Positions 18,751-35,200 of a DNA stretch of 64,000 nucleotides are shown one piece after another (position 1 is the stretch's first letter; every line of letters starts with the position of its first letter). The position numbers and the translations under genes were made by a program. Source of the DNA: Pontibacter sp. G13 (lineage in GTDB: Bacteria > Bacteroidota > Bacteroidia > J057); NCBI RefSeq assembly GCF_031851795.1, contig NZ_CP134696.1:3306501-3370500 (forward strand), read 5' to 3'. The notes beneath the pieces are model-generated. The model saw nothing but the letters and a program-made list of their open reading frames with translations, was not told the origin of the DNA and ran no database searches.

Positions 18751-20274
18751 TCACATTTCCTGTCCATTGACAGCTTCCAAGAACACCTCGTAATAGTCGC
18801 GTTCTTCGATCATGGCCAACAGATAGGATTCAAATTGCATGATTTGGTTACCACCCACTTCGGAAGCTTCGAATTCATCTACGAAATTCCGGTAGGCAGA
18901 CTTCAGGAATACATTCTTCCCGGCAATAGCAGCCGCATTAAGTCGCATGATAATCTCGACAAACTTGGCTTCTCGCTGGAAGAATTCGTCCTTCAATAGC
19001 TTCTTACAGCTCTTTTTGAAGGCTTTGTGTTGGCGTTCTGCATCTTCATAATTCCTGCCTTGGTACAAATTGACCAATTCATAAATTTGGACATAGAACT
19101 GTAGCTCTTCACCCAACTGGACGTACCCTTTGTGCGCTTTGATCTGCAGGAATACTTCTGAAGCCTGCGGGTGCAGGGACTTGCAGAACAATAAGTCAAC
19201 CATACTGATCAACATATAGACTTCCTGAAGGGCATTTCCTTTGATCTCAGGGAGGGTCAATGCCTCCTCCAACAGATCTCCGTATGCATCCAGATCTCCT
19301 GACACCTTGAGATTGAAAAGGCGTGCAGAATAGTAGTGGAAAGCGTATTCCCCAAAGTTCTGGCGTTTGAACATCTGAAGTTCTTCACCCAGAAATTCCA
19401 ATTCCTCAGAAGCATCAGCAATTTTCAAGAGCTTGTGCAAGGAGTTGATCCGCCAAATACGGAGCATCAATCGGCTTGCATGATTGTCTTTGTTGAATTG
19501 CCCATCGTCGTTGAATTCGTCGAAGGTTTTTTTGGCGTAATCCGCCAGCTCCTGGAAAGCAGACTTTTGAATGAGGATGGAAGCGACTGCCTTGAGAATC
19601 ATCATCTTCCCAGAAGTGGAGTGGAAGATGTCTTTGTGTTCTTCAAGCTGTTGCTTGATTCCTTCCAAGGTATCGATGACCGATACACTTTTCTTGGATC
19701 GCCCAAAGTTTCGTTTGAGCAGGGATTGGGTCACCATTCCCAGCACCTCCGAACTAGCGCGGAGGATATCGATGTGTTTTTGGTTTTCTCTTCGTTTGGT
19801 GATGACAGACTCGATGTCGACATCGTGGTGCACGGCCAATTTCACCATTTCATCATACACGACCTCCAGAACCTGAAACTGGTCCTGTTGCTCTGCGACA
19901 CGCTCAGCTTTTCGAAGATTGTAGAAGGATTCCCGGTAGAGTCCCCGCTCACGGAACAGGACCGCCAGCTGAATATAGGAGTAGGACTCAATGGAATTTT
20001 TGTAATTGAAATGATAGAAAAGAAGGCTCTTTTCGAGATTGTTCATCAGCTTGTTTCGAAGCCGATAGTAACTATTTCGGGCCTTGGCACCGGAGCTCCC
20101 ATAAAATTGCTTAATGACATCCTCCTCTGATTCCTTAAATTTCCCCGCTCGGATCGCGTCAAAAAGAATCAATAGCTTCTTTTCTTCATCTGCCTTAAAA
20201 CGATTGGATAAGATCTTGAATCGTCTTACCTCATCACTTGTCAGGTTTTCTATGATGCGCTCGAGAATATCCAC
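18751..20274 (-). CDS. Helical-repeat (TPR-like) protein of unknown function, about 500 residues
   Basis: 507 residues from a GTG start giving VDILERIIENLTSDEVRRFK. No signal peptide or membrane helix. The N-terminal 60 residues include a conserved-looking opening (LTSDEVRRFKILSNRFKADE) followed by KLLILFDAIRAGKFKESEED. The remainder is a chain of amphipathic helices with degenerate TPR character (RERGLYRESFYNLRKAERVA, LVNLYQGRNYEDAERQHKAF). I recall similar orphan proteins in other Bacteroidota genomes but no function. It is monocistronic and probably a cytoplasmic scaffold. There is no sign of truncation. Confidence 0.65.
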   Translation of the reverse strand: MDILERIIENLTSDEVRRFKILSNRFKADEEKKLLILFDAIRAGKFKESEEDVIKQFYGSSGAKARNSYYRLRNKLMNNLEKSLLFYHFNYKNSIESYSYIQLAVLFRERGLYRESFYNLRKAERVAEQQDQFQVLEVVYDEMVKLAVHHDVDIESVITKRRENQKHIDILRASSEVLGMVTQSLLKRNFGRSKKSVSVIDTLEGIKQQLEEHKDIFHSTSGKMMILKAVASILIQKSAFQELADYAKKTFDEFNDDGQFNKDNHASRLMLRIWRINSLHKLLKIADASEELEFLGEELQMFKRQNFGEYAFHYYSARLFNLKVSGDLDAYGDLLEEALTLPEIKGNALQEVYMLISMVDLLFCKSLHPQASEVFLQIKAHKGYVQLGEELQFYVQIYELVNLYQGRNYEDAERQHKAFKKSCKKLLKDEFFQREAKFVEIIMRLNAAAIAGKNVFLKSAYRNFVDEFEASEVGGNQIMQFESYLLAMIEERDYYEVFLEAVNGQEM

Positions 20275-20752
20275 GTTGATGAAAAAACGTTAAGAAAGTA
20301 TCAAAAAAAGTTAGGGTATCACTTTGCTTAATACAATAGTATAGTTGGGGCTAATTGTAAAGCTCAAGGTAGCGATTTTGTACGAGAAATCTAAGGGATC
20401 TCACTAAGATACGACTTTTTCTTACCCTTTTAACCATCAATTATCCTTGTCCTACAAATTATTGATTTGGCATTTTTCGACATGCGAATCTGTAGCAATT
20501 CTCAATTATTTGCACCCAAACATAGCTTTTGTGAAACACTATGGCTATTTCTTTATCGAAAATTGAAAATCCAGCCCATCCAATCGCTTTATAACGCCGG
20601 AACCTGATCCCCTTTTTTTCACAATAATGCGCTCTATATTTTGATTTTTTTTCCAAAAAATTTTTCGGCCCGAATCGTATACAAATCAACGATTCGGGCC
20701 GAACACTGTTCCATTTAGTCGAAATAAGCCACTTTGGGTAGCTCAACGAAAG
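20275..20752. other. AT-rich intergenic region
   Basis: 478 bases between two minus-strand genes. It contains the terminator of the upstream yhhQ gene and, nearer 20300, the presumed promoter of the helical-repeat gene. A 95-codon frame here runs straight through the terminator hairpin and is not credible. Confidence 0.55.
20655..20701 (-). terminator. Terminator of the STAS-rnz-yhhQ cluster
   Basis: CGGCCCGAATCG (20666-20677) and CGATTCGGGCCG (20690-20701) form a perfect 12-bp stem with a 12-base loop. On the minus strand it is followed by AAAAATTTTTT, so termination is probable although the T run is offset. Confidence 0.75.
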
Positions 20753-21544
20753 CTATACTTTTTCTAAGGGAGGCTCTTCGGCAGCGGCTCGCTCAATCAA
20801 TTTGGCCGCAAGCTCTTTGCCCAAAAACAGATCGATTCCCCAGTGTACCACATACAAAAGTGGCGTGAGGACCAACGCCATCAAAAATTTGTAGCAATAG
20901 GATACGACCCCTAGGGCAATCACCAATCCGAACTCCATGCGCTGCTCGGGAGGTGGAAGCAGATAGAATGCCAAGAAGAGCACCACATAGCTATCTACCA
21001 ACTGAGATACCAGCGTAGACCCGGTGGCTCGAAGCCAAAGCATCTTCTCGCCTGTGATCTTCCGAATCCGCTGAAAGACCATGACATCCACCAACTGCCC
21101 AATCAGGAACGCGGTAAGTGAACCAATGATGATTCTGAGACCTTGTCCAAATACCCGTCCGAAAGCAACGTCAATATTGGGGTCGATATCTTGGTGAAGG
21201 TCCAGCCAAAAGGCAGCAGGTGAAACCTCCATCGCCATATACACCATCAGAAATGCATAGGCGATCAAACCAGATGCCAGGAAAGTCAACAATCTCACCC
21301 CTCGGCGGCCAAAGTATTCATTGATGATATCGGTCATGATGAACACCACCGGCCAAAGCAGAACCCCCGCTGTCAGGTTGAATGAAAGGCCCGACTGACC
21401 AAACAAGGTCCAATTCACGGGCTCCATTCCCAGTGTTGCCTCCAAGGAAAAGATCTTTCCCCCAATAAATTCTGCGATGAGGGCATTGGTGACAAAAAAG
21501 CCACCCAAAATGATGAATAGGAGGTTTTCGCGCTTTAACAGCAT
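20753..21544 (-). CDS. yhhQ: Queuosine precursor transporter (YhhQ/VUT family, DUF165)
   Basis: 263 residues with about seven membrane helices. Members import queuosine precursors such as preQ0 or preQ1 for tRNA modification. Family marks are the N-terminal FVTNALIAEFIGGKIF, the block VFIMTDIINEYFGRRGVRLL, the central FLIGQLVDVMVFQRIRKITG, and GSTLVSQLVDSYVVLFLAFY. The protein is somewhat longer than the E. coli homologue because of an extracellular loop (WLDLHQDIDPNIDVAFGRVF). Its start overlaps the rnz stop, placing it in an operon with the tRNA-processing ribonuclease Z, which fits a tRNA theme. Confidence 0.88.
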   Translation of the reverse strand: MLLKRENLLFIILGGFFVTNALIAEFIGGKIFSLEATLGMEPVNWTLFGQSGLSFNLTAGVLLWPVVFIMTDIINEYFGRRGVRLLTFLASGLIAYAFLMVYMAMEVSPAAFWLDLHQDIDPNIDVAFGRVFGQGLRIIIGSLTAFLIGQLVDVMVFQRIRKITGEKMLWLRATGSTLVSQLVDSYVVLFLAFYLLPPPEQRMEFGLVIALGVVSYCYKFLMALVLTPLLYVVHWGIDLFLGKELAAKLIERAAAEEPPLEKV

Positions 21545-22467
21545 CAGACGTAATCTTTGACGTTGAAGAGGTTGCCTTCGCGAGCCAGTAGGGTATTGGG
21601 AAATACAGTACGAGCTTCGTCCAGCAATGGCTGAAGATCGCGATACCTTGCGGAGAAGTGTCCCAGTAGCAGTTGATTGACATTGGCCTGCTGGGCAATT
21701 CTTCCTGCATCAAGGGCGGTAGAATGGCAAGTGGCCTCAGCGCGATCACGCAGATTGTTCAGGAACGTGGACTCGTGATAGAGGAGTCTGGTATCCTTGA
21801 TGTGATCGATCAGCGCTTCATTGTATTTGGTATCCGAGCAGTAGGCAAATGACAGAGGCGCGTCCGGGGTCATCAGCACATCTTCGGGCGTCACTACCCG
21901 ACCATCTTCGAGCGTGATGACATTGCCTTGCTTGAGAAGGGTGAAGTAGTTGTTGGGGACCTCAAGTGCCTTCGCCTTGTAGAAGTCGAATTTGGGCTTC
22001 TTGTTGGTTTCCACAAATCGGAACCCGCGGCAGAAGATCCGATGATCCAACGGCAAAACCTCAACCTTGTACTTGGGCGTCTGATACAGGATGGAGCCAG
22101 GCTCAAAATCCTCTAGCGGAACAAAATCCAATTCGTAGTTGAGGTAGCTATGTGTCTGGGCGAATACCACATCCAGAATCTTCTTGAGACCCGATGGAGC
22201 AAACATCTTGAGGGGGAAGTTCCGCTCGTACAGACTTAGGGAAGTCAGCAAACCGGGAACACCCAACACATGATCACCATGAAGATGGGAAATGAAAATT
22301 GCATCAAGTCGTGAGAATTTCACTTTATGCTTGAGCAACTGAATCTGAGTAGCTTCCCCACAATCGACCAAGTGGTGACGATCATTGATAGTCACCACTT
22401 GAGCAGAGGGCATGCGAGTGTTGGTTGGGATAGCGGCGCTCGTTCCCAGAATCCGTACTTGAAACAC
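21544..22467 (-). CDS. rnz: Ribonuclease Z
   Basis: 307 residues from a GTG start (VFQVRILGTSAAIPTNTRMP). This metallo-beta-lactamase-fold endonuclease trims the 3' trailer of tRNA precursors. The zinc motif is SHLHGDH with His61, His63, Asp65 and His66. Downstream ligand motifs are the loop LPLDHRIFCRGFRF, the AYCSDTKYNEALIDHI block with its Asp, the HESTFL run and a C-terminal LLLGHFSARYRDL. Length is normal for the short RNase Z (ElaC type). It overlaps yhhQ and lies 52 bases downstream of a STAS-domain gene, probably in one transcript. Confidence 0.93.
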   Translation of the reverse strand: MFQVRILGTSAAIPTNTRMPSAQVVTINDRHHLVDCGEATQIQLLKHKVKFSRLDAIFISHLHGDHVLGVPGLLTSLSLYERNFPLKMFAPSGLKKILDVVFAQTHSYLNYELDFVPLEDFEPGSILYQTPKYKVEVLPLDHRIFCRGFRFVETNKKPKFDFYKAKALEVPNNYFTLLKQGNVITLEDGRVVTPEDVLMTPDAPLSFAYCSDTKYNEALIDHIKDTRLLYHESTFLNNLRDRAEATCHSTALDAGRIAQQANVNQLLLGHFSARYRDLQPLLDEARTVFPNTLLAREGNLFNVKDYV

Positions 22468-22519
22468 CTGAGTTTTGGATCTTAAATTGGCACAAGAAAG
22501 AGAGGATGAATGAGGGCAG

Positions 22520-22915
22520 CTAGTTCAATTCCGGCTCGCCTCCAGCATCATCGACGATCTCCTTTTCGATCTCCGACATGAATACGGCCTCGCGGGCTTC
22601 TTCTTCGGTAGAGACCAAATTGAGGACATCATTTAGACGGGAAATCTCCATCAATTTGCGAACGTGGTCATTGATTCCACAGACAACCAAAATCCCGTTG
22701 GTGGAAGTACACAGACGGTTGGCAGTCAGAATGGCGCTCAGACCAGAGCTATCCACATACTTTACGTCAGATAGATCCAAGATCAAATTGCGGTTTCCGC
22801 GAAAATTCAACTGAGTGAATTCGTGCTTTACGGCAGGAGAAATGCGGGAATCCAACTTTTCCTCCATCAATTTGAAGACAGTGAACCTATCCTCCACGTT
22901 TTGCTCAAAACGCAT
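22520..22915 (-). CDS. STAS-domain anti-sigma factor antagonist
   Basis: 131 residues. The STAS fold covers residues ~5-105, with the phosphorylation loop VKYVDSSGLSAIL, where Ser57 is the expected site. By family knowledge, phosphorylation of that serine by an RsbW/SpoIIAB-type kinase prevents binding and a PP2C phosphatase reverses it. A 25-residue acidic tail (EIEKEIVDDAGGEPELN) extends beyond the domain. No kinase or phosphatase gene is adjacent; a complete partner-switching set lies at 48.9-51.7 kb. It precedes rnz and yhhQ on the same strand, an association of unclear meaning. Confidence 0.85.
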   Translation of the reverse strand: MRFEQNVEDRFTVFKLMEEKLDSRISPAVKHEFTQLNFRGNRNLILDLSDVKYVDSSGLSAILTANRLCTSTNGILVVCGINDHVRKLMEISRLNDVLNLVSTEEEAREAVFMSEIEKEIVDDAGGEPELN

Positions 22916-23086
22916 ATCTCTTGTTAATTTACAACGTCTTTAATCCAAAGATAAGGAATCTTGACCAATCACCCCAAGTAGGGCTTCGCGCAGTGGCGAG
23001 GATAAGGTTTGATTGGAAAATATGTTCACCTCATGGGTATTTTTCCAGCTTCCAATGCAATTCATAGACCTTCCCTCCAAGGGCGA

Positions 23087-23587
23087 ATGTCTCGATCCGT
23101 ATTCTGCAAGGTATGGTTTTACCTCGGTTTGTATGCCACGCTTTGCCTATTATTTGCGCTTCCCAGCAAAAGTATTGCACAATCCTCCATCCCTCCCGAG
23201 GATCTTCAGCTACAATTGTGCAACAGAATCAATGCATACAGGGCAGAAATGGGGCTTACAGCGCTTACTTGGTCGGATTCATTGACATTGATAGCTGCCA
23301 AGCATTCGGATGCAATGGCTGAACATCGGCGTCCATTTAGCCACAAAGGATTCAAGAAAAGGGCCAAACAGGTCTATCAATGGTGGCAATCCGCTACAGG
23401 GGTATCGGAGAATCTCTATTTCACGACTTGGACAGGAGACTTGGTGGAAATGGCCTTCGAAGGCTGGAAAACGAGCCAAGGCCATCACGAAAATATGATC
23501 GGCGCCTACGATATGACTGGCATCTCCATCGTCAAAAATCGCAAGGGAGAATACTTTATCACCCAATTATTCGTCCAACTGCCATGA
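23087..23587 (+). CDS. Secreted CAP (SCP/PR-1) domain protein
   Basis: 166 residues from the ATG giving MSRSVFCKVWFYLGLYATLC; longer frames upstream add no signal-like sequence. The signal peptide ends near SIAQ. The CAP domain begins LQLQLCNRINAYRAEMGLTA and has ALTWSDSLTLIAAKHSDAMA with the cavity His, FSHKGF, the acidic GVSENLYF motif, and a GHHENMIGAYDMTGISIVKN block with the second His. CAP proteins are extracytoplasmic; some bacterial members bind lipids or act as proteases, but the activity here is unknown. The stop overlaps the next gene's ATG (ATGA), so the two are co-translated. Confidence 0.85.
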   Translation: MSRSVFCKVWFYLGLYATLCLLFALPSKSIAQSSIPPEDLQLQLCNRINAYRAEMGLTALTWSDSLTLIAAKHSDAMAEHRRPFSHKGFKKRAKQVYQWWQSATGVSENLYFTTWTGDLVEMAFEGWKTSQGHHENMIGAYDMTGISIVKNRKGEYFITQLFVQLP

Positions 23588-24309
23588 TCCTAAACCTACC
23601 CCCCTACCGGATTCCTGTCAAGGTCCTCAAAGCCGAAAAACCTCGGATTCAGATCAAGTTCCTTCCCGAATCCCCAGAGTTGATCATCATCTCTCCTACC
23701 GGCACTTTTTCGGAATCGGTCCGAGCGTTTATTCAGCAAAAGGAGAGATGGATTCGGCAGCACTATCCGCGAAACCTCAACCAGCACAATGCCCGGCAGC
23801 AGTTCCATCAAAAATTGAAGGCGCATCAGATTCAGATTCTGGGGACAGAACGAGCGTTTCAATTCACACCAAGCCGCCGAGAGCATGTGAAACTCACTGC
23901 GAAAGCTATTGAAGTTGAGCACGTCCCTTTTCGGGATCAAAAGGACGAGATGATCTTCAAATACAATGCGCTCAGGACGCTTGCCAAACCCATTTTGACC
24001 CAAAGGACGCATCAATGGGCAGCCAAAACGCAAAGCCGTTTCAACCAAGTCCGCGTCAAGGATCACAAGTCCAAATGGGGCTCATGCAGCAACAAGGACA
24101 ATATCAACCTCAATTGGCACCTGATCTTGTTGCCTGAAATCTTGATGGATTATGTGATTGTGCATGAATTGATGCATCTGCGCGTCTTCAATCACAGCCC
24201 CGAGTTCTGGCAGGAAGTGGCTCGGTACATGCCCAATTACCAGCAATACGACCATGATTTGGAGACCTACCGATGGATGATCGGCATTTTCGAGCCTTTT
24301 ATCCGCTGA
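23584..24309 (+). CDS. YgjP-like (DUF45, SprT-related) zinc metallopeptidase
   Basis: 241 residues starting MILNLPPYRIPVKVLKAEKP at the ATGA overlap with the CAP gene; longer frames upstream belong to that gene's shadow. The N-terminal beta-rich part ends in a KERWIRQHYP motif typical of YgjP. The C-terminal half has VKDHKSKWGSCSNKDNINLN, LNWHLILLPEILMDYVIVHE and the zinc site HELMH (His194, Glu195, His198). The third ligand is His205 in FNHSPEFW. Members are predicted metal-dependent proteases; one has been tied to nucleotide metabolism, but the substrate here is unknown. Its end overlaps convergent prmC by 11 bases. Confidence 0.88.
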   Translation: MILNLPPYRIPVKVLKAEKPRIQIKFLPESPELIIISPTGTFSESVRAFIQQKERWIRQHYPRNLNQHNARQQFHQKLKAHQIQILGTERAFQFTPSRREHVKLTAKAIEVEHVPFRDQKDEMIFKYNALRTLAKPILTQRTHQWAAKTQSRFNQVRVKDHKSKWGSCSNKDNINLNWHLILLPEILMDYVIVHELMHLRVFNHSPEFWQEVARYMPNYQQYDHDLETYRWMIGIFEPFIR

Positions 24310-25192
24310 TGGGCTTGGTCGCGGCCACCATCCGATCCTTTCCCTGAAGATCCTTGCGCAATTCGGCTTCCATCCAACCAAGTTCCTGCACCATCGCCAC
24401 AATGCTGGACCCAAAATCCATGTGAATCTCGAAATACAATCGACCACCGGGCCTCACCCATTTCATCGCCTGAGCGGCTACCGCGCGATAAAACAACAGG
24501 GGATCATGATCCGGGACAAACAGCGCAAGGTGTGGCTCATGCTTGATCACTCGATCGGACATCTCTTCCAGCTCCTTCTGCGGAATGTAAGGCGGATTGC
24601 TCACCACAAAATCCAGCTTGGCATCCCAGTGTTGGCGAGGCGCAAGGATATCATCGAGAATCATGTCCACCTTGGCGGTCAATTCTTCTGCATTGACTTG
24701 GGCAATCTTCAAGGCCGCTTCGCTCACATCCATTCCCATGATCTGGTTGGAGACGTTGATTTGATCCCACTCCAATGCCAAGGTAATTGGAATACAACCA
24801 GTTCCTGTTCCGACATCTAGCCCACAAATCGGCTGTCCAGCCCTTCGCAATCTTGCCCATTCTTCCCGAATCCAAACGACCAGCTCCTCCGTTTCCCGGC
24901 GGGGAATGAGCGTATCTGGAGAAACTCGAAAGTCCCGCCCATAAAAATGCCCTTGGCCCAACGCATACTGGACAGGTAGACCCTGAGCGACTTTTCGCGC
25001 CATCTCGATCCCTTTGGCAAAGACTGCCTCGTCGATTGCCGCATCGACATTCAATTGCTGCCGAGTCCAAGACCATGAAGAAACCCCCTCTGCGATCCAT
25101 CTAGTCAAAAAAGGCACCTCAGATGCTTCAACGCCAGAGGTCAACTCCTGCCGAATGGCCGCATGAAATTCCGCAAAGCTTGGTGTATCCAT
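24299..25192 (-). CDS. prmC: Peptide-chain-release-factor glutamine N5-methyltransferase
   Basis: 297 residues from the ATG giving MDTPSFAEFHAAIRQELTSG. PrmC (HemK) methylates the GGQ glutamine of release factors. The N-terminal helical domain (~1-85) binds the release factor. The Rossmann methyltransferase part has LIPRRETEELVVWIREEWAR, the SAM motif LDVGTGTGCIPITLALEWDQ, and the catalytic NPPY in VVSNPPYIPQKELEEMSDRV (around residue 200), followed by EPHLALF. An upstream alternative start would add 17 residues with two cysteines and is less likely. It is convergent with the YgjP-like gene and overlaps it by 11 bases. Confidence 0.93.
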   Translation of the reverse strand: MDTPSFAEFHAAIRQELTSGVEASEVPFLTRWIAEGVSSWSWTRQQLNVDAAIDEAVFAKGIEMARKVAQGLPVQYALGQGHFYGRDFRVSPDTLIPRRETEELVVWIREEWARLRRAGQPICGLDVGTGTGCIPITLALEWDQINVSNQIMGMDVSEAALKIAQVNAEELTAKVDMILDDILAPRQHWDAKLDFVVSNPPYIPQKELEEMSDRVIKHEPHLALFVPDHDPLLFYRAVAAQAMKWVRPGGRLYFEIHMDFGSSIVAMVQELGWMEAELRKDLQGKDRMVAATKPISG

Positions 25193-25518
25193 TCCGCAAA
25201 GGTAGCAATTCCGAATCTCCCTGAAATTGTTTGTCTGGACCATTCGGAAAACCTTCGCAATCCAGACGGGTTCTTACATACTCAGCCATTGCCCAGTCCA
25301 AGTAGCTAAATATATGAGATTTCAGGCGTTTCCTGATCGCTGATCGTTATTTGGCGCATAACAGCCATTTAGATCACCATTGAGCATCAACAGGAGGCTC
25401 CCGAGGAGTAGTTGAAGTAGGGTAAAAAATGGAGAGATTGTCCCATACTCACAATCGACAGTCAATTCCAACATGATCCTATGAAGCAAAGCTACCCTTA
25501 GATCTATCACCCATAATT
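25193..25518. other. Divergent intergenic region
   Basis: 326 bases between divergent prmC and gldN. It presumably holds both promoters. I see no tRNA, small gene or structured element. Confidence 0.5.
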
Positions 25519-25527
25519 TTGATCTGT

Positions 25528-26421
25528 ATGTTGCTTCGTTTAATGGCAGTTTTCTCTTTCGGGATCTGCACGATATTGGGCACAACAGCTTATGCCCAGC
25601 TTGATATCCGTCAGGAGGACCAATTCTGGCGCAAAAGGGTAGTGAATAGAATCAGTCTGATTGAAAAGATCAACGCTCCATTGATTCGTCACGAGTCCAA
25701 TTATTATGGAGACAATCAAGCCTACCCAGAAGTGGAAGGAATGGTCGTCTCGCTGATGCACGGACTTCGGGATGGCAAGTACCTCGCGTTTGACCCGGAT
25801 GATTGGGAAAAACAGTATGACTATGCCGGACTGATGGAGCGGATGAGCGAGTTCGACCAGGCATTGATGGAGTACGAATCCTATGATGAAGAAGGGCCGG
25901 GCGACGATCTCGAAGGGTATTCAGAAGACTTCGAATCTTCCGACTACGAGGAGTTCGAAGAAGAAACAGACGAATGGACCGAAGTGGAAGGCGATGAATG
26001 GGACACCGAATTTGACACGGTTGACGAAGAAGCAGTAGCCGAAATCGAGGAAGACCCAGACATGGCGCAATATGAAGAGGTTATCCACGTGGTAGAAGAT
26101 TGGATCTTCGACAAGAATCGCACGAAACTGGAGCACGTTATCGATTACTTCGAAATCGTCTGGGTTGATCCTTCCGGGACATTGCCGGAGAAAGTGCTTG
26201 CACGATTCAAATGGGATGATGTACGCGATCAGCTCGACAACACCCAGTGGAAAAACAGATACAATGATGCCGAAGTGCGATCTGTCACCGAGGTATTTGA
26301 GATGCGGATATTCCATGCCTACCCGATCAACATTGGCGGAGAAGGCATCCGGACCCTCCAAGAAGCCGAATTCCGCCGCCAAGAACTGGTGCAGTTTGAG
26401 CACGAGTTGTGGAACTACTAG
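25528..26421 (+). CDS. gldN: GldN/PorN-type type IX secretion subunit with a long acidic insert
   Basis: 297 residues from the ATG giving MLLRLMAVFSFGICTILGTT; a TTG three codons earlier is unlikely. The signal peptide ends near AYAQ. GldN/PorN forms the periplasmic ring of the type IX translocon with GldK/PorK. Family blocks are QFWRKRVVNRISLIEKINAP, the GKYLAFDPDDWEK run (~90-103), VIDYFEIVWVDPSGTLPEKV, LARFKWDDVRDQLDNTQWKN and VFEMRIFHAYPINIGGEG. Between them residues ~108-190 form a low-complexity, strongly acidic insert (Glu, Asp, Ser, Tyr). gldK, gldL and gldM are not beside it, so this is either a dispersed gldN or a second paralogue. Confidence 0.8.
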   Translation: MLLRLMAVFSFGICTILGTTAYAQLDIRQEDQFWRKRVVNRISLIEKINAPLIRHESNYYGDNQAYPEVEGMVVSLMHGLRDGKYLAFDPDDWEKQYDYAGLMERMSEFDQALMEYESYDEEGPGDDLEGYSEDFESSDYEEFEEETDEWTEVEGDEWDTEFDTVDEEAVAEIEEDPDMAQYEEVIHVVEDWIFDKNRTKLEHVIDYFEIVWVDPSGTLPEKVLARFKWDDVRDQLDNTQWKNRYNDAEVRSVTEVFEMRIFHAYPINIGGEGIRTLQEAEFRRQELVQFEHELWNY

Positions 26422-26458
26422 GCAGGAATTCATTCCACACAGATACAAAATAGCCCCC

Positions 26459-26502
26459 AACATGAGTCATCCCGAGCTATCGGTTTGACTCATGTTTTTT
26501 TT
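26459..26502 (+). terminator. Rho-independent terminator of gldN
   Basis: AACATGAGTCA (26459-26469) pairs perfectly with TGACTCATGTT (26486-26496). The 16-base loop pairs further (CCGA/TCGG), and eight T residues follow. It lies 38 bases after the stop. Confidence 0.9.
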
Positions 26503-26559
26503 GGGGAGGGATTCTGTGTTGGGAGTTATGGCAACTCTTGGATGCTCGGCAAGCCCTGG

Positions 26560-26917
26560 GAGATTCCACCTCTGCCGCCGACGCGCGGGCCTTGGCCGAT
26601 GGCAGGCTGGAATGACGGGAGGGGGCAATATGTTTTGAAGGGATTGGCTGATCTTTCGGTCCCAAACTCCAAGCCCCATACGTCATCCTCGACGGCCATA
26701 GCCACGGCCCCAGCGTTGGCGCCGATCGGGGATCTCCTGAGTTCGTGCATGATTTCCAAGTCCACCCCTCCTGTGTCATTCTGGAAAATCTGAAGCACAG
26801 GCCTGTGCGCTGGGGATTTATTCAGAATCTTGGGAGGGATGAATGCCCAGTGCCCCAAAAGATCCTGAATCGCCCACCATCGCAATGGGCCTCGGCGATG
26901 GACGTTCAGGATGACAC
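26560..26917. repeat. Four GTCAT-type imperfect palindromes (first set)
   Basis: Each element begins GTCATYC and continues as an imperfect palindrome ending in GAATCT, GGATCT or similar. E1 is on the minus strand at 26560-26617 (ATTCCA against TGGAAT). E2 is on the plus strand at 26680-26735 (ATCCTCGACGG against CCGATCGGGGAT). E3 is on the plus strand at 26773-26830 (TTCTG against CAGAA, inner arms GCACA and TGTGC). E4 is on the minus strand at 26861-26917 (ATCCTGAA against TTCAGGAT, inner CCATCGC against GCGATGG). They resemble REP/BIME-like palindromes. E2-E4 recur in the later tandem units. Confidence 0.65.
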
Positions 26918-27704
26918 GATGGTAGTGGATGAAATCCTGCCCGGCAGGCGCTCAACCTGCGACTCCCATTGCAGGGACGCAAAATTTCGACGCGATGGCA
27001 GGCTGGAATGACGGGAGGGGGCAATATGTTTTGAAGGGATTGGCTGATCTTTCGGTCCCAAACTCCAAGCCCCATACGTCATCCTCGACGGCCATAGCCA
27101 CGGCCCCAGCGTTGGCGCCGATCGGGGATCTCCTGAGTTCGTGCATGAATTCCAAGCCACCCCTCCTGTGTCATTCTGGAAAATCTGAAGCGCAGGCCTG
27201 TGCGCTGGGGATTTATTCAGAATCTTGGGAGGGATGAATGCCCAGTGCCCCAAAAGATCCTGAATCGCCCACCATCGCAATGGGCCTCGGCGATGGACGT
27301 TCAGGATGACACGATGGTAGTGGATGAAATCCTGCCCGGCAGGCGCTCAACCTGCGACTCCCATTGCAGGGACGCAAAATTTCGACGCGATGGCAGGCTG
27401 GAATGACGGGAGGGGGCAATATGTTTTGAAGGGATTGGCTGATCTTTCGGTCCCAAACTCCAAGCCCCATACGTCATCCTCGACGGCCATAGCCACGGCC
27501 CCAGCGTTGGCGCCGATCGGGGATCTCCTGAGTTCGTGCATGAATTCCAAGCCACCCCTCCTGTGTCATTCTGGAAAATCTGAAGCGCAGGCCTGTGCGC
27601 TGGGGATTTATTCAGAATCTTGGGAGGGATGAATGCCCAGTGCCCCAAAAGATCCTGAATCGCCCACCATCGCAATGGGCCTCGGCGATGGACGTTCAGG
27701 ATGA
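26598..27704. repeat. Tandem array of 395-bp units, 2.8 copies
   Basis: Unit 1 occupies 26598-26993 (396 bp), unit 2 26994-27388 (395 bp) and unit 3 27389-27704 (partial). Each starts GATGGCAGGCTGGAATGAC. Units 2 and 3 appear identical over the 316 shared bases; unit 1 differs by about three changes (near 26752, 26761 and 26796). Each unit carries three palindromes plus, in units 1 and 2, a tail ending CGCAAAATTTCGACGC. The unit 1/2 and 2/3 junctions join GACGC directly to GATGGCAGG. At the left flank GACGCG is separated from GATGGCAGG by 12 other bases. This indicates recent tandem amplification. Confidence 0.92.
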
Positions 27705-27720
27705 AATGATGGCGGTGGAT

Positions 27721-27809
27721 AAAATCCTGCCCTGCGGGCCGGAGCATTTGCCCAAAACCAGCTCAGTCAAGATAAATTCCGCCTCCCGAAGGCCCGCGCC
27801 CTGAATTTT
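27721..27809. repeat. Imperfect palindrome closing the repeat island
   Basis: AAAATCCTGCCCTGCGGGCC (27721-27740) faces GGCCCGCGCCCTGAATTTT (27791-27809), an inverted repeat with a few mismatches. It replaces the CCGGCAGGCGCTCAACC tail found in units 1 and 2. The shared start GTGGAT-AAATCCTGCC suggests it is a different member of the same element type. Confidence 0.55.
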
Positions 27810-27989
27810 CCGAGGTGACGCAACATGATTGTTTAACATATGTGAATGCGCTGTAGGTGCGATACATCACAGGCAAGGGTTTCCAACCCTTGACTATGCT
27901 TGTGCATGAGCGTTTTTTTCGATCCAGCAGAATATATGCTCGGGCATTGCAAAAATCGGCGTATTTTGACCATCGCTGAAAATGAGTCT

Positions 27990-30515
27990 ATGAAACGTTT
28001 CTTTTTGCTGATGCTCCCGTGGATTTGCGGGACGTGGGCCATGGCCCAAACCATCCCATCTCCTGCTGAGTATCTCGGATATTCGTTAGGAAAGACCTAC
28101 ACCTATCATCACCAAATCGTCTCCTATGTAGATATGGTGGGGGAAAAATCGCCCTATGTGCAGGTCCAATCTTATGGTTCCACAGCCGAAGGTCGCCCGC
28201 TCAAGGTTGCCTATATTTCCTCTCCCCAACATCTCCAGAATCTAGATGCCATCAGAACCCGCCATCTCCAACAAGCCGGCATTGAATCAGGGGAAACCGA
28301 TGCAGTGGACTTGCCGATTGTCTGGCTCAGCTACAATATTCACGGCAATGAAGCCTCAGCTTCCGAAGCGGCCCTCCAAACGCTTTATCAATTGGCGACC
28401 CAGCAGGAACTCCAATCTATGCTAGACAGCCTAATCGTGATCATCGACCCCTGCATCAATCCGGATGGGCGGGACCGATTTGTCAATTGGTTCAAACAGG
28501 CCGCCAATCAACTTCCCAACCCTAACTGGGAAGCGTATGAACACCACGAGCCTTGGCCGGGTGGGCGATTCAACCATTATCTGTTTGACTTGAACCGCGA
28601 TTGGTGCTGGCAGACCCAAAAGGAAAGTCGGGATCGTGCGCGGCTCTACCAGACTTGGTTTCCGCATATCCATGTGGATTTCCATGAGATGTTCCCCAAC
28701 AGCCCCTACTACTTTGCGCCTGCTGCTGCACCGTATCACGAGGTCATCACTGAGTGGCAGCGAACCTTCCAGACAGAAGTCGGCAAGCGCCATGCATCCT
28801 ATTTTGATGCTCAAGGCTGGTTTTATTACACGGGTGAATCTTTTGACTTGCTGTATCCTAGCTATGGAGATACCTGGCCCACTTATCAGGGAGCAGTCGG
28901 TTTCACCTATGAGCAGGCTGGACATGGAGTTTCCGGTGTGGCCATCCTTGAAAACTCAGGAGATACCTTGACGCTTGCCGATCGGATCTCCCACCATTTC
29001 CTGACGGGAATTTCCACCGTTGAATCCGCGCATGCCTACCATTCCGAATTGATCTCCGAATTCAATTCCTATATCGACCGTGCGATCAATAATCCCATTG
29101 GTCCATACAAAACCTACACAGTATCCATCTCCGAAACCCCAGAAGCTACCTTGGGGGCTTTTTGTGAACTGCTGGAACACAATGGCATCGAGTATGGCTA
29201 TGCCAAGCAGAATACCCGCCAATCGGGATTCAGCTACCAAACACAGAAAACCGAGACTGTATCCATTCAAGCAGGAGATTTGGTGATTTCGGCCTATCAG
29301 GCTCAATCCAACCTTCTGAGGGTATTGCTTGAACCATCCACGATGCTGGAGGATTCCGTCACCTACGACCTGACAGCTTGGGCATTGCCGTATGCATACG
29401 ATCTCCACGCTTATGCCTTGCCAGCCAAGCTCACCCCAAGTGCCCAACGACCCTTTCAGGACCCTGCTGGAGAATTGGACGCAGCATACGCTTACGCTTT
29501 CAGGTGGAATAGTGCGGCATCTGCTCAGTTTTTGGCTCAGCTTTCCCGCTCTGGAATCATGGTCAAGCAAGCACGTGTGCCTTTTGAGCATCAAGGGGAG
29601 CGTTATCCAAATGGAACGATGGTGATTCCCGGCCGAATCCTCCAAGACCCTGCGGTCAGAAAAAGTATCTCTCAACTGGCCCAAAGCTTGGCAGTACCGC
29701 TGATTCCCATCGAAACTGGGTTTACAGATGCGGGTCCGGATCTGGGCTCTGATACTTTCTCTTGGATTGGTCCCAAATCGGTGGCCATCGTCCGAGGAAA
29801 AGGCGTGAACCCTACAAGCTTCGGAGAGGTCTGGCATCTATTCGAAGCACAGATCCAATATCCGACTACGGTGATTGATCGCTCCTATTTTGCAGAAGCG
29901 GATCTATCGCAGGTTCAGGTGTTGATCTTGGCGGATGGCAACTATCGAGATCTCCAGCCACAACTGCTGGCATTTGCCCAAAATGGGGGAACCATCATTG
30001 CCATGGAAGGAGCGATTGGAACATTCACGCATACCCCTGAAGGCGCAAATCCTCCGACGATGCTCGCTTCGGCCATTCAAGCTCAGGAGGCCCTTTCTCA
30101 AGAGCTCGAAACGGAGAATGGATCGGAGCCATCGTTTTCTGAGCTACCCAAATACGGCGAGCAGGATCGCAATCAAATCAGCGATATGGTCGCAGGCAGC
30201 ATTTATCAGATTGCGCTAGATCCTACCAATCCGCTGGCTTATGGACAGGATGAATCTACGTTTCTGCTCAAGCGCAATTCTTCTGTTTACCCATTCTTGT
30301 CGAATGGGGGATGGACTGCTGGGGCATTTACGAGCGGAGATCCGATTGCCGGATTTACGGGCGCTTCTTTGCGGGAGGAAATTGGCCAGACGATGGCGAT
30401 CGGCATGGAGCCTCATGGCCGTGGCAAAATCATCTATTTCACGGATTCACCGATCATCCGCGGATTCTGGAATTCTGGAGTTTTGCTGATGGCCAATGCG
30501 GTATTCATGCCTTGA
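27990..30515 (+). CDS. Secreted M14-family zinc carboxypeptidase
   Basis: 841 residues from the ATG giving MKRFFLLMLPWICGTWAMAQ, a clear signal peptide; upstream frames add no such leader. The M14 catalytic domain covers ~25-370. Zinc ligands are His118 and Glu121 in NIHGNEASASE and His232 in HVDFHEM. Glu308 in GFTYEQAGHG is the likely catalytic base. The substrate-binding NRDWCW precedes the third ligand. The C-terminal half (~400-841) contains a Rossmann-like GATase1-type region (VQVLILADGNYRDL, GGTIIAMEGAIGTF) and ends KIIYFTDSPIIRGFWNSGVL. Such large M14 proteins are common in Bacteroidota. No type IX sorting domain is seen, so it is probably periplasmic. Confidence 0.88.
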   Translation: MKRFFLLMLPWICGTWAMAQTIPSPAEYLGYSLGKTYTYHHQIVSYVDMVGEKSPYVQVQSYGSTAEGRPLKVAYISSPQHLQNLDAIRTRHLQQAGIESGETDAVDLPIVWLSYNIHGNEASASEAALQTLYQLATQQELQSMLDSLIVIIDPCINPDGRDRFVNWFKQAANQLPNPNWEAYEHHEPWPGGRFNHYLFDLNRDWCWQTQKESRDRARLYQTWFPHIHVDFHEMFPNSPYYFAPAAAPYHEVITEWQRTFQTEVGKRHASYFDAQGWFYYTGESFDLLYPSYGDTWPTYQGAVGFTYEQAGHGVSGVAILENSGDTLTLADRISHHFLTGISTVESAHAYHSELISEFNSYIDRAINNPIGPYKTYTVSISETPEATLGAFCELLEHNGIEYGYAKQNTRQSGFSYQTQKTETVSIQAGDLVISAYQAQSNLLRVLLEPSTMLEDSVTYDLTAWALPYAYDLHAYALPAKLTPSAQRPFQDPAGELDAAYAYAFRWNSAASAQFLAQLSRSGIMVKQARVPFEHQGERYPNGTMVIPGRILQDPAVRKSISQLAQSLAVPLIPIETGFTDAGPDLGSDTFSWIGPKSVAIVRGKGVNPTSFGEVWHLFEAQIQYPTTVIDRSYFAEADLSQVQVLILADGNYRDLQPQLLAFAQNGGTIIAMEGAIGTFTHTPEGANPPTMLASAIQAQEALSQELETENGSEPSFSELPKYGEQDRNQISDMVAGSIYQIALDPTNPLAYGQDESTFLLKRNSSVYPFLSNGGWTAGAFTSGDPIAGFTGASLREEIGQTMAIGMEPHGRGKIIYFTDSPIIRGFWNSGVLLMANAVFMP

Positions 30516-30555
30516 TGCTATGCGGCATTCGCTCAGCAATAAATGAAGATTTCAG

Positions 30556-30588
30556 GAGGCTGCTCATTTCGGGCAGCCTCATCTGTTT
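30556..30588 (+). terminator. Probable terminator of the M14 gene
   Basis: GAGGCTGC (30556-30563) pairs with GCAGCCTC (30573-30580) around a 9-base loop, followed by ATCTGTTT. The T run is weak. Confidence 0.6.
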
Positions 30589-30604
30589 GCGAGTATACAT
30601 GAAG

Positions 30605-30814
30605 GGTGCGGACGGTTGGTGTGGCGTGAGGCACTTGGAGGATTCAGTCGGTGGAGAACGAACAAATTTGATGAATCATCCTTAGGTGGAAGATCTATCT
30701 GATTAAGCGCACTATGTTCCACCGACCGAGTGTCAACGAGTCCGGAAAACGCCGACCCGGCGACAAGCATGAGTGGGACAGATTGAATCCCAAGATTCGC
30801 CGGGGCACGCCCAA
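30605..30814. repeat. Partial (right-half) copy of the inverted-end intergenic element
   Basis: This 210-bp stretch aligns with 6619-6837. Shared blocks are GTGCGGA, AGTCGGTGG (30646-30654), CCACCGACCGA (30719-30729), a GAGTCCG run and the right end. The terminal 17 bases (30798-30814) have the reverse complement TTGGGCGTGCCCCGGCG. The inverted pair GTCGGTGGA (30647-30655) and TCCACCGAC (30718-30726) is preserved although the sequence between has changed, so the pairing itself seems conserved. A local hairpin CGCCG-ACC-CGGCG lies at about 30750-30762. The left end seen at 6390 is missing here. Confidence 0.7.
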
Positions 30815-30826
30815 ATGCTCAAGCAT

Positions 30827-30860
30827 ACAAAAAGGCCAGCACTCGGATGAATGCTGGCCT
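30827..30860 (-). terminator. Terminator of ribH
   Basis: AGGCCAGCA (30833-30841) and TGCTGGCCT (30852-30860) form a 9-bp stem. On the minus strand the hairpin is followed by TTTTTG; on the plus strand it is followed by AAATCTTTTT, so it may work in both directions. Confidence 0.85.
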
Positions 30861-30883
30861 AAATCTTTTTGGAATGAGAGACG

Positions 30884-31378
30884 CTAGCTCTTGGCCATGC
30901 GATGCACATCTACCATGTCTAGGAAGGCGACTGCAGCCTCTTCTCCTTTGTTACCGTATTTGCCACCTGCGCGATCCAATGCCTGCTGATCGGTATCGGG
31001 CGTGAGTACCCCGAAGATAACCGGCTTGGCATGATCGAGGCTCACCTGCATGATCCCTTGAGCGGCAGCTTGACAAATAAAGTCAAAGTGCCGAGTCTCG
31101 CCCTGAATGACGCAGCCGAGGCAAATGACGCCATCGATGTTGGGGCGATTGACCATAGCCATTTTGGCGGCGGTGGGCAATTCGTAGGTACCGGGCACAT
31201 CCCAACGAATGATCTGGGAGGCGGGAATTCCGGCTTCTTCCAAAACACGCAAAGCGCCCTGAAAGAGCGCTTCGGTGATTTGGGTATTCCATTTACTCAC
31301 AGCGATCACGACTTGGGTGGAAGCATGATTTCCGGAACCTTCGTAGGTGATGTGTGAGAGATCGTGTCCTTGATTCAT
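30884..31378 (-). CDS. ribH: 6,7-dimethyl-8-ribityllumazine synthase
   Basis: 164 residues, normal length. RibH condenses 5-amino-6-ribitylamino-uracil with dihydroxybutanone phosphate, the penultimate step of riboflavin synthesis. Landmarks are VVIAVSKWNTQITEALFQGA with the substrate-binding Trp, VPGTYELPTAAKMA, and IDGVICLGCVIQGETRHFDF with the proton-relay His97, then GVLTPDTDQQALDRAG. It overlaps the stop of the upstream membrane TPR gene by one base, so the two are co-transcribed, a pairing I recall from other Bacteroidota. No other rib gene is nearby and no FMN riboswitch was seen. Confidence 0.95.
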   Translation of the reverse strand: MNQGHDLSHITYEGSGNHASTQVVIAVSKWNTQITEALFQGALRVLEEAGIPASQIIRWDVPGTYELPTAAKMAMVNRPNIDGVICLGCVIQGETRHFDFICQAAAQGIMQVSLDHAKPVIFGVLTPDTDQQALDRAGGKYGNKGEEAAVAFLDMVDVHRMAKS

Positions 31379-32070
31379 TATCGAGTAGCTCTACCGATGT
31401 ACTTATCGATATTGAGTCCTTCTTGGGAGAAAGGATATTCCTCCTTGATGGTTTCGTACAGTTCCAATGCATCGCCGAAGTCGCCGTTGGCCTCGTAGGC
31501 ACGTGCAGCGTTCATGAGCATGGAAGGAGTAGTCTGATCATTGGCTCCTGGAGTCTTGGAAGCAGCGAGGAACAAGCGAGCCGCTTTGGCAAAATCTTGT
31601 TTGTCCTCATAAGCGAAACCAAGCGCCATGTCGCGCGCCATAGCGAGCATGTTGCCGCTAGCGGAAACACCTTCAAGTGCATCGATCGCCTCGTCAAGTT
31701 TGCCTTGACGTGCATAGGCTACGCCGATGTAGTACTGAGCCTGATTGCCAGCAGCGGTGCTGCCATATTCGTCGGCAATATCCAAGAATCCCATGCTGAC
31801 GCCATCGCCGTTGAGGGCTTTGTTCAGGGAATCTTGCTCAAAGTACTTGACGGCTTTGAACATATCGGAGTGAGCAAGTGTATTTTGGCGTTCCTTGCTT
31901 TGGTTGAGGAAGATCAACCCTACGACCGCCAATACCACTACTGCCAGACCTCCCAGGATAAGATTTCGGTTATTATTCACAAAATCCTCGACAGAAGAAC
32001 CTTCAGCTCCCACGACCTCTTGGTCCATCAATTCTTCTTCTTGTTGCTTATCCTTCAATTTACTCGCCAT
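31378..32070 (-). CDS. Membrane-anchored tetratricopeptide protein (YfgM-like)
   Basis: 230 residues. An N-terminal cytoplasmic segment (MASKLKDKQQEEELMDQEVV) precedes one membrane helix at ~37-56 (LILGGLAVVVLAVVGLIFLN). The large extracytoplasmic part has TPR units such as AQYYIGVAYARQGKLDEAID, MALGFAYEDKQDFAKAARLF and NAARAYEANGDFGDALELYE. The layout is that of YfgM, an inner-membrane protein that works near the Sec translocon and periplasmic chaperones, though identity is only architectural. It is the first gene of the ribH operon; the stop overlaps ribH by one base. Confidence 0.75.
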   Translation of the reverse strand: MASKLKDKQQEEELMDQEVVGAEGSSVEDFVNNNRNLILGGLAVVVLAVVGLIFLNQSKERQNTLAHSDMFKAVKYFEQDSLNKALNGDGVSMGFLDIADEYGSTAAGNQAQYYIGVAYARQGKLDEAIDALEGVSASGNMLAMARDMALGFAYEDKQDFAKAARLFLAASKTPGANDQTTPSMLMNAARAYEANGDFGDALELYETIKEEYPFSQEGLNIDKYIGRATR

Positions 32071-32154
32071 AGCATTTCAATGATTTAATCCGGTTTGCAA
32101 AAAAAAGAAATCTAACGCTAAGAACAAAGTGTCTGACTACAAACTCGGGTTCCA

Positions 32155-32188
32155 AAAACAGAACAGGCCGCCCAAATGGGCGGCCTGT
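32155..32188 (-). terminator. Terminator of the giant surface-protein gene
   Basis: ACAGGCCGCCC (32163-32173) and GGGCGGCCTGT (32178-32188) form a perfect 11-bp stem with a 4-base loop. On the minus strand TCTGTTTTTGG follows. It lies 36 bases past the stop. Confidence 0.9.
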
Positions 32189-32223
32189 ATTTTCACCTCA
32201 GAGAGGACTGAGGCTCAGTATGC

Positions 32224-35200
32224 TTATCGGCGAACGATAACGCGGGTAACAGTTACGTATTCTCCATCGGTCAAGCGAATGGTGTAAACCGCCTCTGGGA
32301 GGTTGGAAAGGTCCACTTGCTCGTTGAATACGCCATACACGTTGTCGCGAGTCTTCTTGCTCACCAAACGGCCGCGAGCGTCCAAGACCTCGATGGTCAA
32401 GTTCTCCACAGCTACTTGATCAGCAGACAAGTTCACGATACCAGCAGTTGGGTTTGGATAAATATCCAAGTTTCCGCCAAAGAGTTCATCGACGAATACA
32501 CCGTCCAACTTGAGTTCGAGGGTATCAGATCCACAATCGTTGGTCACGATGAGTGTGATCGGGAAAGAACCATCGAATTGGTAGGTGTAGAATGGATTCT
32601 CATCCGTGCTAGTACCTCCGTCACCGAAGTCCCAAAGGTAGCTGGCAGTGGTGTCTCCTGCTGGAGTAGACAAGTTGATGAAGGAGTAGTCGTACCCTGC
32701 TCCACCTACGTGGTCGATATCAAAGTCAGCCGAAGGCGTCTCATTGACAGTCACGAAGATGGTATCAGTGGCTTCACAACCCAATGCATCAGTAACAGTC
32801 AGGGTAACATCTCCAGTGTTGAAGATGGTTACATCAACTGTCGTGTCGTTGGTAGACCACAGGTAAGAGTACCCAGCCTCAGCAACAACACCCAATCCTA
32901 CCGTATCACAAGCTGTTGTATCTGCGCCCAAGTCCACAACTGGAGCAGGAGCTTCAGACAACTCAAACATGTCGGTGCTTACACATCCTTCCGCGGAAGT
33001 AACGGTTACCGTGATGGTATCGGTACCAGTGGATGGAGGAACAACATCGATGGTCTGAGTAGACTCGCCAGTAGACCAGTCATACGTGTAGCCCATTCCC
33101 ATACCAGCATCCAAGGTCACTGGCAAACAGGTCTCAGTAGATCCACCCAAGGCTACCATAGGAGCAGCGTTGATAGTTACATCTACTGTATCGGTAGTGG
33201 TACAGCCGTTGGCAGTAACAGATACCCAAACCTGTCCAGAAGTAGTTGCAGTATAAGTCTGGCCTACATTGGAAGGATCAGACCATACATACAAGGCTCC
33301 AGGGTTGCCCGCATCCAACATGAAGCTATCGCAAGAAGCGGTGTCAACTCCGAGATCTACCTCAGGAGAAGGAGTAACAAACAATACAACTGTATCGGCT
33401 CCTGTACATCCATCAGCGTTCATCACGTCAACTGTGTACAGACCGGTAGTATCTACATTGAAGGTAGGAGTAGTGATGGAAGAATCACTGTTCCAGATGT
33501 AGGAGGTAATGCCTGCACCAGTTGCATCGAGGGTGTATCCAGAACATACAGTTCCGTCAGATCCCAAGTCTACAGCTACTGGATCAAGGATTTTGGCATA
33601 TACAGGTACTGGCTCACTTTCACAACCCAGTGCTGTGACAGTCCAATCATAGAAGAAGTAATAGTAACCACTAGAACCCAATCCATTGATTGTACCTGTC
33701 AAGGAAATTACACTTGGTATCTCGTATGGGAAGGTTGCACCACCGGAGTTACGATACAAGTTTGGCACAGTACTACCGGTCGCACTCAGCTCATATCCAG
33801 CACCCTGAGGTACAGTAAAGTTCAGCGTGACTACGGTATCCGAAACAGTTCCACCAAATGGGATGGTAGTGGATTGGATTACGTTGCCACCGTTGTCTGT
33901 CAAGGTAACACCAATGATACCAGCTCCTCCAGGGTAAACTTTAACTGTGTTGATTTCAATATCAGCCAAAGCATCGAACTCGATTCCATCTCCGAAGAAA
34001 GTGTAAATACCGCCATTACCTATGGTATTATCAGCTGGCGTGAATCCAGTGTAGTTACTTTGATTTGCAGCCGCCGCATAGTATGTGGTCGTTTGCGACA
34101 ACATTGGAGTATTGAAAGTATCTCCATAGGCAATCACCTCACCTCCAATGGAATCATACCAAAGGATGTTAGTTGTATTGCCGGATGCCATCAAAGTAAA
34201 CATCGCAGAATCCGTATTACATACAGAATCACTGAATACCGTTGGTGCATCTGGGCTCAGATTCACAAAGATGGAAAGGAATGCAGAGTCATTGATCAGG
34301 ACAGTGTCTCCAGCCAATGCGGTGTAGGCAATCATGGAGTATGTACCGGAGTCAGAAGCAGGGAATTGACCTACATAGAACTCGTCAGTACTGTCTACCA
34401 CCAAGGTATCTGTGTAGACATTGGATACTGTGTAGGTACCGTTAGGACCAGTCACATCAATGAATACAGGCACAGAATCTTGATCTACCAAACCTTCATT
34501 GCCAATCACAACAGACAAAGGCAAGGAGTCAGTAGTACACAGCAATCCACTAGGTCCGATCAAGGATACCAACTCTACGTCATCGTCAGGACGCTCGTAG
34601 ATCAAGATATCGTCGAATGCAAATCCATCGAAGGAGTTTACAGAACCATCGGAACCGAAGGTAACTCGCAACAATACACTTGGCTGACCTCCCAAAGAGT
34701 CCAGATCATGCTCAGCAGTGACCCATCCACCACTAGAACCAGTCCAACCAGTTTGGTTACCACCAGGGTTACCGTTGATTGTACCATCGTTGTACCAGTT
34801 GTCAGGGTCTCCCAAGTTACCTACGTTCACCCAAGTCAAACCACCATCGATGGAAGACTGCAAGTTGGAACCATCCCAGCTGAATTCAGATTCATGCCAG
34901 ATCTCAAACTTGATCACTGGATTCAGGATGGAAGTGAAGTCGAAACAAGGTCCGATGACATAAGAGTCTTCGTTGTTGTTGTAGGTAGAAGAGTTATCCA
35001 ATCCACCAGTCACCCAGACATTAGAGTCAGATGCAGCGGTATTGATGTTGTTCTTGGAAGGATATCCAAACGCCCAAGTGGAGTTTGATCCTTCATCACG
35101 CCATCCACCTTTTGGATCTGCACCTTCGAAGTCCTCAAAGTAAGGATATGTGGTAATCGTCGGTACGGATACAACCTCGTAGACCAAGGAGTCATTCGCA

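Follow-up and report, generated by a model that had tools for sequence, protein, structure and literature searches.

A tandem array in Pontibacter sp. G13 as a probable local amplification of bulged, CGTC-type REP hairpins

The 395-bp tandem array found between two genes of Pontibacter sp. G13 is probably a locally amplified block of REP-type hairpins, a long and bulged variant of the CGTC type, which spread with the help of a postulated activity that processes single-stranded DNA (ssDNA) and was then duplicated in tandem. The array lies in the 64,000-nt stretch of DNA analyzed here (referred to as the window), and searching its unit across the genome, as an earlier sequence-only reading of this stretch had proposed, revealed one of 27 arrays belonging to a genome-wide family and not a local oddity.

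The array and its units

TRF, used with periods up to 500, detected one tandem array and no other in the 64,000-nt window, with a period of 395 bp, 2.9 copies, 98% matches, and a score of 2214 (26597-27739; Table 1). The 395-bp units given by the sequence-only reading were thus confirmed, and its array end (27704) was not, as repeat homology continues for ∼35 bp beyond. Likewise borne out was the similarity of the units: units 2 and 3 show no difference in their first 317 bases and 7 differences in the final 35 bases, and the roughly three changes noticed in unit 1 are 2 substitutions and 1 indel relative to unit 2. Such near identity suggests that amplification was probably recent. At the two junctions, CGACGC directly joins GATGGCAGG, which starts there at 26994 and 27389, and the same pair occurs separately in the left flank, where GACGC (26580-26584) and GATGGCAGG (from 26598) are 13 bases apart; the short shared sequence proposed earlier for the junction is therefore real. 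The array starts within the REP hairpin of the left flank, which itself remains intact. The GldN-family gene upstream is a pointer to Bacteroidota.

Each unit comprises three clean members of the hairpin family in the orientations +, +, and -, plus further palindromic pieces, which sharpens the earlier view of three to four palindromes per unit: their REP-like nature was retained, and their precise content was revised. The ATTCTGGA and ATCCTGAA hairpins of unit 1 form a tags-outside (HH) pair with 29 nt between them. Folding of four REP hairpins from the array and left flank gave z scores of -1.7, -2.4, -2.2, and -2.9 against shuffles, in agreement with the palindromes recognized by eye. A protein-coding repeat was considered and rejected, since the period of 395 is not a multiple of 3 (11 of the 27 array periods described below are divisible by 3) and the four array open reading frames (ORFs) of 102-148 aa had no Pfam match at an E value of 0.01. 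This check for a conserved protein encoded through the units upheld the earlier claim that no frame looks like a protein. In addition, no Rfam family matched the array (E up to 1, region 20000-34000), and the array had no match in the plasmid collection.

Table 1. Features of the array and its surroundings (positions in the window)
Feature	Position	Strand	Basis or remark
Upstream gene, GldN-family (gliding motility) protein	25519..26421	+	Pfam PF19841, E 9.5e-21
Terminator-like hairpin and T run, between upstream stop codon and array	26455..26507 (about)	+	
REP hairpin, stem type ATTCCAGC, left flank	26561..26616	-	intact
Array unit 1	26597-26992		TRF and unit comparison
REP, unit 1, stem type ATCCTCGA	26682..26735	+	54 nt, bulged A
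REP, unit 1, stem type ATTCTGGA	26775..26830	+	56 nt, bulged A
REP, unit 1, stem type ATCCTGAA	26860..26915	-	56 nt, bulged A
Unit 1/2 junction, CGACGC/GATGGCAGG	26988-27002	unstranded	second copy at 27383-27397
Array unit 2	26993-27387		TRF and unit comparison
REP, unit 2, stem type ATCCTCGA	27078..27131	+	
REP, unit 2, stem type ATTCTGGA	27170..27225	+	
REP, unit 2, stem type ATCCTGAA	27255..27310	-	
Array unit 3	27388-27739		TRF and unit comparison
REP, unit 3, stem type ATCCTCGA	27473..27526	+	
REP, unit 3, stem type ATTCTGGA	27565..27620	+	
REP, unit 3, stem type ATCCTGAA	27650..27705	-	tag now TTC; covariance-model match C1:3334150-3334205
Downstream gene, M14 zinc carboxypeptidase	27900..30515	+	Pfam PF00246, E 2.9e-18 on 27990-30512

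A hairpin family with a bulged adenine

The elements share a tag, (T/C)GTC or CCTC, followed by an 8-bp stem starting with AT; a single A bulges from the 3' arm, and an inner stem leads into a long loop. Their consensus is tag-ATYC....-A-....RGAT-CT or GAAT-CT, and most measure 54-61 nt. The corresponding skeleton pattern matched the Pontibacter genome 502 times, versus 2 matches in the reversed control. An alignment of 34 elements supported 13 base pairs, with 98.2% paired cells versus 76.3% in shuffles and 122 both-sides-changed cells versus 36 (each reached by 0 of 500 shuffles), and the covariation score was 0.668, compared with 0.237 for shuffled and ≤0.200 for slid alignments, so that the palindromes covary as a family. 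All 34 aligned elements, which are mutually distinct, have AU and UA as their first two stem pairs and A in the bulged column. The rows stem from 361 matches, partly selected by stem complementarity, of which 348 were kept and grouped into 31 clusters; one chance match recognized by eye (L035:6110-6168) was removed and four window elements were added, the 30 elements from fetched stretches being <84% alike by the clustering score.

Because these elements were partly chosen by stem fit, the test was repeated with only the 5' arm as a starting point, in 65 intergenic gaps (113 kb) of the same genome. Of 451 arms, 376 were followed at a distance of 18 to 54 bases by a 3' arm with no more than one mismatch, and 343 of these 376 elements had an inner stem comprising ≥4 pairs. 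All 343, which include tandem copies and are thus not independent, reach the inner stem through a one-base bulge on the 3' side that is always A, although the search did not require a bulge; the remainder comprised 32 elements with a shorter or no inner stem and one with a 5' bulge. By comparison, coding DNA provided a partner for 5 of 153 arms (none with an inner stem), and shuffled gaps provided one for 2 of 54. Among the 376 elements, the tag was TGTC in 218, CGTC in 86, CCTC in 62, and GGTC in 10, where the search motif fixed [GC]TC and left free only the first tag base and G or C at the second; similarly, the motif prescribed AT on the 5' side, and the 3' side was found independently. From the tag to the end of the 3' arm the elements span 52-59 nt, under a rule that demanded an interval of 18 nt or more between arms. 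The 3' tail was CTN in 347 and CCC in 21.

Arrays across the genome and their amplification

Comparison of the array with the whole genome, which comprises 3 contigs and 7.67 Mb, yielded 188 matches in dozens of places. In 31 stretches, namely, the window and 30 fetched stretches picked for their matches to the window array, TRF found 27 arrays with at least two elements, distributed over 22 stretches. Their periods range from 144 to 899 bp, with up to 11-12 copies, 92-98% TRF matches, and lengths of 0.3-2.2 kb; the ends given by TRF are approximations, and a few arrays touch or overlap one another (L036 and L043). The strict element rule used for this census misses the unit 3 ATCCTGAA hairpin with its TTC tag. 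Within the stretches examined the elements are mainly intergenic, and neighbors within 200 bp are arranged as HT (107), HH (93), or TT (65). A covariance-model search of the genome, in which 150 of 4084 candidates were scored, also pointed to a head-to-tail array of single elements at G000:C1 7397062-7397643, with seven same-strand matches ∼88 bp apart.

Units of the same array are nearly identical, and those of different arrays differ. Mean loop identities for three stem types were 0.87-0.95 within a locus and 0.63-0.78 between loci, indicating that the arrays grew separately. Of the 54 array ends, 3 lay within a REP, compared with 42% of random positions, and 20 lay in the zone around a REP end that reaches 2 bases inward and 20 bases outward, compared with 18% at random; the window array, which starts inside a REP, runs contrary to this general breakpoint pattern. 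Recombination between like REPs was rejected as the amplifier, given that the same REP type in the same orientation occurs at both ends of only 8 of the 27 arrays. We infer that blocks were duplicated with breaks beside hairpins, a process with which slippage, template switching, and hairpin-adjacent cleavage are all compatible. In vitro, the TnpA_REP protein of Escherichia coli is described in the available text of PMC8266576 as cleaving mainly near the REP structure, on its 5' or 3' side.

A sequence of events may be proposed for the preferred reading. Single or paired hairpins would spread through the chromosome as nonautonomous elements when single stranded, and a postulated trans-acting ssDNA-processing activity would recognize the tag together with the bulge. 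Later, blocks of neighboring hairpins would duplicate in tandem, by slippage, template switching, or breakage beside hairpins, and the duplicated blocks would then be homogenized. The hairpins would be selfish, and retention of such arrays would need no host function. This genome, rich in arrays, would offer many separate duplications for the study of hairpin-provoked tandem amplification in bacteria.

Relation to known REP systems

The closest published relatives are the CGTC-tagged REPs of Di Nocera et al. (PMC3733652), which, according to the portions of that paper drawn on here, carry a CGTC, TGTC, or CCTC tag, an 8-bp stem starting with AT, and a short unpaired 3' end, are mostly intergenic without a dedicated transposase, and are known from Bacteroidetes, too. 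The tags of 366 of the 376 elements and the stem of 8-9 bp starting with A-T, T-A agree with that type. In contrast, published loops are of 4-5 nt with few named exceptions, whereas the hairpins here have a long loop on top of an inner stem, for which reason the elements are not filed under CGTC-1 to CGTC-4. Moreover, the text describes no bulged family, and clusters are rare there (except in Neisseria and Wolbachia) but common here, where HH dimers do not predominate. The tails, published as mostly CCA and here mostly CTN, may differ as well. Since tag and stem fit the CGTC REPs and the bulge, the inner stem, the loop length, and the frequent clustering do not, the elements constitute a variant.

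The mosaic of both REP orientations, often in tandem, is also that of E. coli BIMEs, and the GTAG REPs of these (TnpA_REP group 2) similarly combine an unpaired tetranucleotide with a hairpin bearing a conserved bulge, as far as the text of PMC8266576 used here extends. The GTAG tag is absent from the present family, no linked TnpA_REP was found, and the E. coli bulge is an AA/GC mismatch instead of one A in the 3' arm. REPINs (Bertels and Rainey 2011, PMC3116915, in the sections consulted) likewise form inverted REP pairs and ordered clusters tandemly repeated with their flanks, strain SBW25 having 16 tandem clusters, the largest with four REPINs; here, on the other hand, there are up to 11-12 copies, mixed REP types per unit, equally frequent head-to-tail and inverted neighbors, and no linked RAYT. 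Tandem REPIN clusters as such (PMC3116915) and a bulge essential for recognition, required by TnpA_REP for E. coli GTAG elements (PMC8266576), are therefore already known from the text of these sources. Judged by their sequences, the elements appear to work like REP/BIME elements and to be CGTC type by tag and stem, falling otherwise outside the four published families as a new variant. Among the open-access papers listed by literature searches, none dealt with bulged CGTC REPs to judge by title or abstract opening.

Occurrence in other genomes

A search of the array unit in 40 genomes (its own and 39 relatives), also suggested by the sequence-only reading, gave matches in its own genome only. 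The skeleton pattern matched at most 22 times in each of 99 other genomes, often above the respective reversed control (0 to 10), and most of the foreign matches listed showed no palindrome by eye. The exception was a genome of the same class (G094), with short bulged hairpins of ∼37-39 nt on its contigs C28, C46, and C48. Covariance-model searches of the relatives, in which at most 95 candidates per genome were scored under stricter filters, so that weak relatives may be missed, found two matches each in the same-family genomes G002 and G004. Three of these four loci (L047, L048, and L050) hold hairpins of 50-51 nt that keep the bulged A, and each G004 hairpin faces a second palindrome with the tags outside.

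A bulged-A pattern of one stem type with a free interior matched at least 118 stretches in the named genome collection. The matches listed came from Alpha- and Gammaproteobacteria, Balneolales, Neomarinimicrobiota, Omnitrophota, Parcubacteria and other Patescibacteria-type bacteria, Chloroflexi, and others, with phyla taken from record titles and many records being metagenome bins. Inner pairing was not asked for, yet at least 5 consecutive inner pairs, including the fixed first pair, were present in 110 of 145 among the matches listed. In 23 carrier genomes, selected through the bulged-A pattern and hence biased toward a bulged A, 456 matches (at least one being an extended reading of another match) were obtained with any base allowed at the bulge position, versus 1 for an unbulged search, which is itself among the 456. 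The bulge position was A except for four G and one T among the matches listed (part of the 456), and the match with T is the single unbulged hairpin. Viral contigs contained the pattern in 6 stretches, with A (3), G (1), or C (2) as the bulge base and no unbulged form.

The bulged hairpin is one form among others in these surroundings: among 101 other CGTC-type hairpins in the 118 stretches listed, counted with the pattern-scan matches masked, 79 had no 4-pair inner stem, and 15 had a 3' bulge that was always A. Short-loop relatives in the same stretches show an A before the 3' arm in 31 of 45, and 27 of 45 such foreign hairpins have a CCA tail. Neighboring genes provided no common partner, as the 1603 ORFs within 2.5 kb of foreign elements formed 8 clusters, judged from protein starts, that were common to at least 3 stretches, and none was consistently adjacent, apart from ORFs that overlap the repeats and come mostly from a single Tepidamorphus genome.

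A more far-reaching proposal, which we consider possible but rather doubtful, is that the bulged long CGTC form, kept across many phyla with its nearly invariant unpaired A, might mark the substrates of a widespread single-strand-processing enzyme distinct from Y1/RAYT proteins, and that in the Pontibacter genome this enzyme and tandem duplication might run freely. The bulged A, invariant in the 343 elements with an inner stem here and present in all but five of the foreign matches listed, would be a concrete recognition feature; the postulated enzyme could thus be searched for with a defined bait and a control changed by one base.

Competing explanations and Y1 transposase genes

The identity of units 2 and 3 over 317 bases might be taken to mean that a single unit was falsely repeated during assembly. 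Such an artefact is very improbable, given that private differences occur in unit 1 and in the final part of unit 3, that the assembly comprises 3 contigs, and that 26 further TRF arrays differ in period. Placement between genes has been considered in terms of RNA. Among 41 element-bearing gaps, 15 were convergent, 19 codirectional, and 7 divergent, versus 9 convergent and 28 divergent among 95 element-free gaps of at least 40 bp in the same stretches (p 0.0004 for convergent and 0.14 for divergent gaps); the stretches were picked for arrays, gene calls were made by the analysis itself, and six pattern matches fell within called genes. CGTC REPs likewise favor convergent and codirectional gaps in the available text of PMC3733652. 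This bias, together with possible RNA folding of the hairpins, would suit arrays selected as 3'-end stabilizers, a role the sequence-only reading had listed, or as terminators; however, a terminator-like hairpin (fold of 26445-26510, -29.7 kcal/mol, z -5.8), itself absent from the list of a simple terminator scan, precedes the array in the window, the codirectional and divergent gaps speak against such a role, array sizes of 0.3-2.2 kb seem far beyond the needs of a stabilizer, and equal placement is expected if insertions are best tolerated between 3' ends. A host function at the RNA level is therefore quite unlikely. By analogy with E. coli REPs, for which PMC3733652 mentions a gyrase precedent in the part available, the arrays could instead bind gyrase or a nucleoid protein and shape the chromosome, in line with dispersed, mostly intergenic elements enriched in convergent gaps. 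We regard this, too, as quite improbable, because unit length, unit number, and loop sequence vary between arrays and no similar count was reached in any of the 99 other genomes.

In a REPIN/RAYT system in the strict sense, a Y1 (RAYT-like) transposase of the genome would mobilize the hairpins in trans. The genome does contain two Y1_Tnp genes, the tagged and bulged hairpin resembles the E. coli TnpA_REP substrate as described in the text of PMC8266576 at hand, and one unbulged CTC-tagged palindrome lies ∼1.1 kb from the RAYT-like gene of the L045 locus. However, each gene sits in a repeat cluster of another kind, whose pattern, allowing 1 and 2 mismatches, had all six of its genomic matches around its own gene. 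These clusters serve as a positive control, illustrating how readily the repeats of a Y1 gene are recognized beside it. Contrary to the link to REP-associated transposases offered by the sequence-only reading, none of 27 Y1 loci from this and 12 same-family genomes, with up to 1.5 kb of flank (10 of the 27 cut short), had a bulged element; two weak unbulged matches (L045 and L084) were seen. Among 30 Y1 loci of carrier genomes, the search rule had any match in 6: L237 had a single bulged element, L234 and L235 had unbulged CGTC-like hairpins on one side (an opposed pair in L235), and the matches in L222, L230, and L231 look like chance. Elements on both sides of a Y1 gene occurred in 0 of the 57 Y1_Tnp loci tested, 23 of which are <3 kb owing to contig ends, so that their flanks are partly missing. 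Moreover, 10 of the 23 carrier genomes, most of these 10 being drafts, had no Y1_Tnp match, including G103 (93 pattern matches) and G118 (44). At the loci covered, the Y1/RAYT link was not seen as a neighbor relation, mobilization by the genome's own Y1 transposase is unlikely, and the case for mobility is drawn entirely from the distribution of the elements. The absence of an element-flanked Y1_Tnp gene at these loci accords with the CGTC REPs, for which the available text of PMC3733652 reported no dedicated transposase in 2013 and left the mover open. The amplification of REP-type hairpins spread by a postulated ssDNA-processing activity remains our preferred reading.

The two Y1 clusters of the genome have features of their own. 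At L044 (G000:C1 about 1434000-1437370), a 150-aa Y1 protein lies within a two-sided cluster of palindrome-rich repeats of ∼135-151 bp, and its motif YIRRQKEHH resembles that of TnpA subclass 1.2, a subclass generally without typical terminal structures according to the text of PMC6006769 consulted. The 181-aa Y1 protein of L045 (G000:C1 about 5487060-5490290) has ∼70-bp palindromic repeats on both sides and contains YIHQNP, the motif given for Bacteroidetes subclass 2.6 in the same text. Part of the L044 repeat has dispersed relatives: directly to the right of the window array, the fragment at 27848-27890 shares 86% identity with a section of the repeats that surround the L044 gene, and its palindromic core has 28 matches in the 30 fetched stretches.
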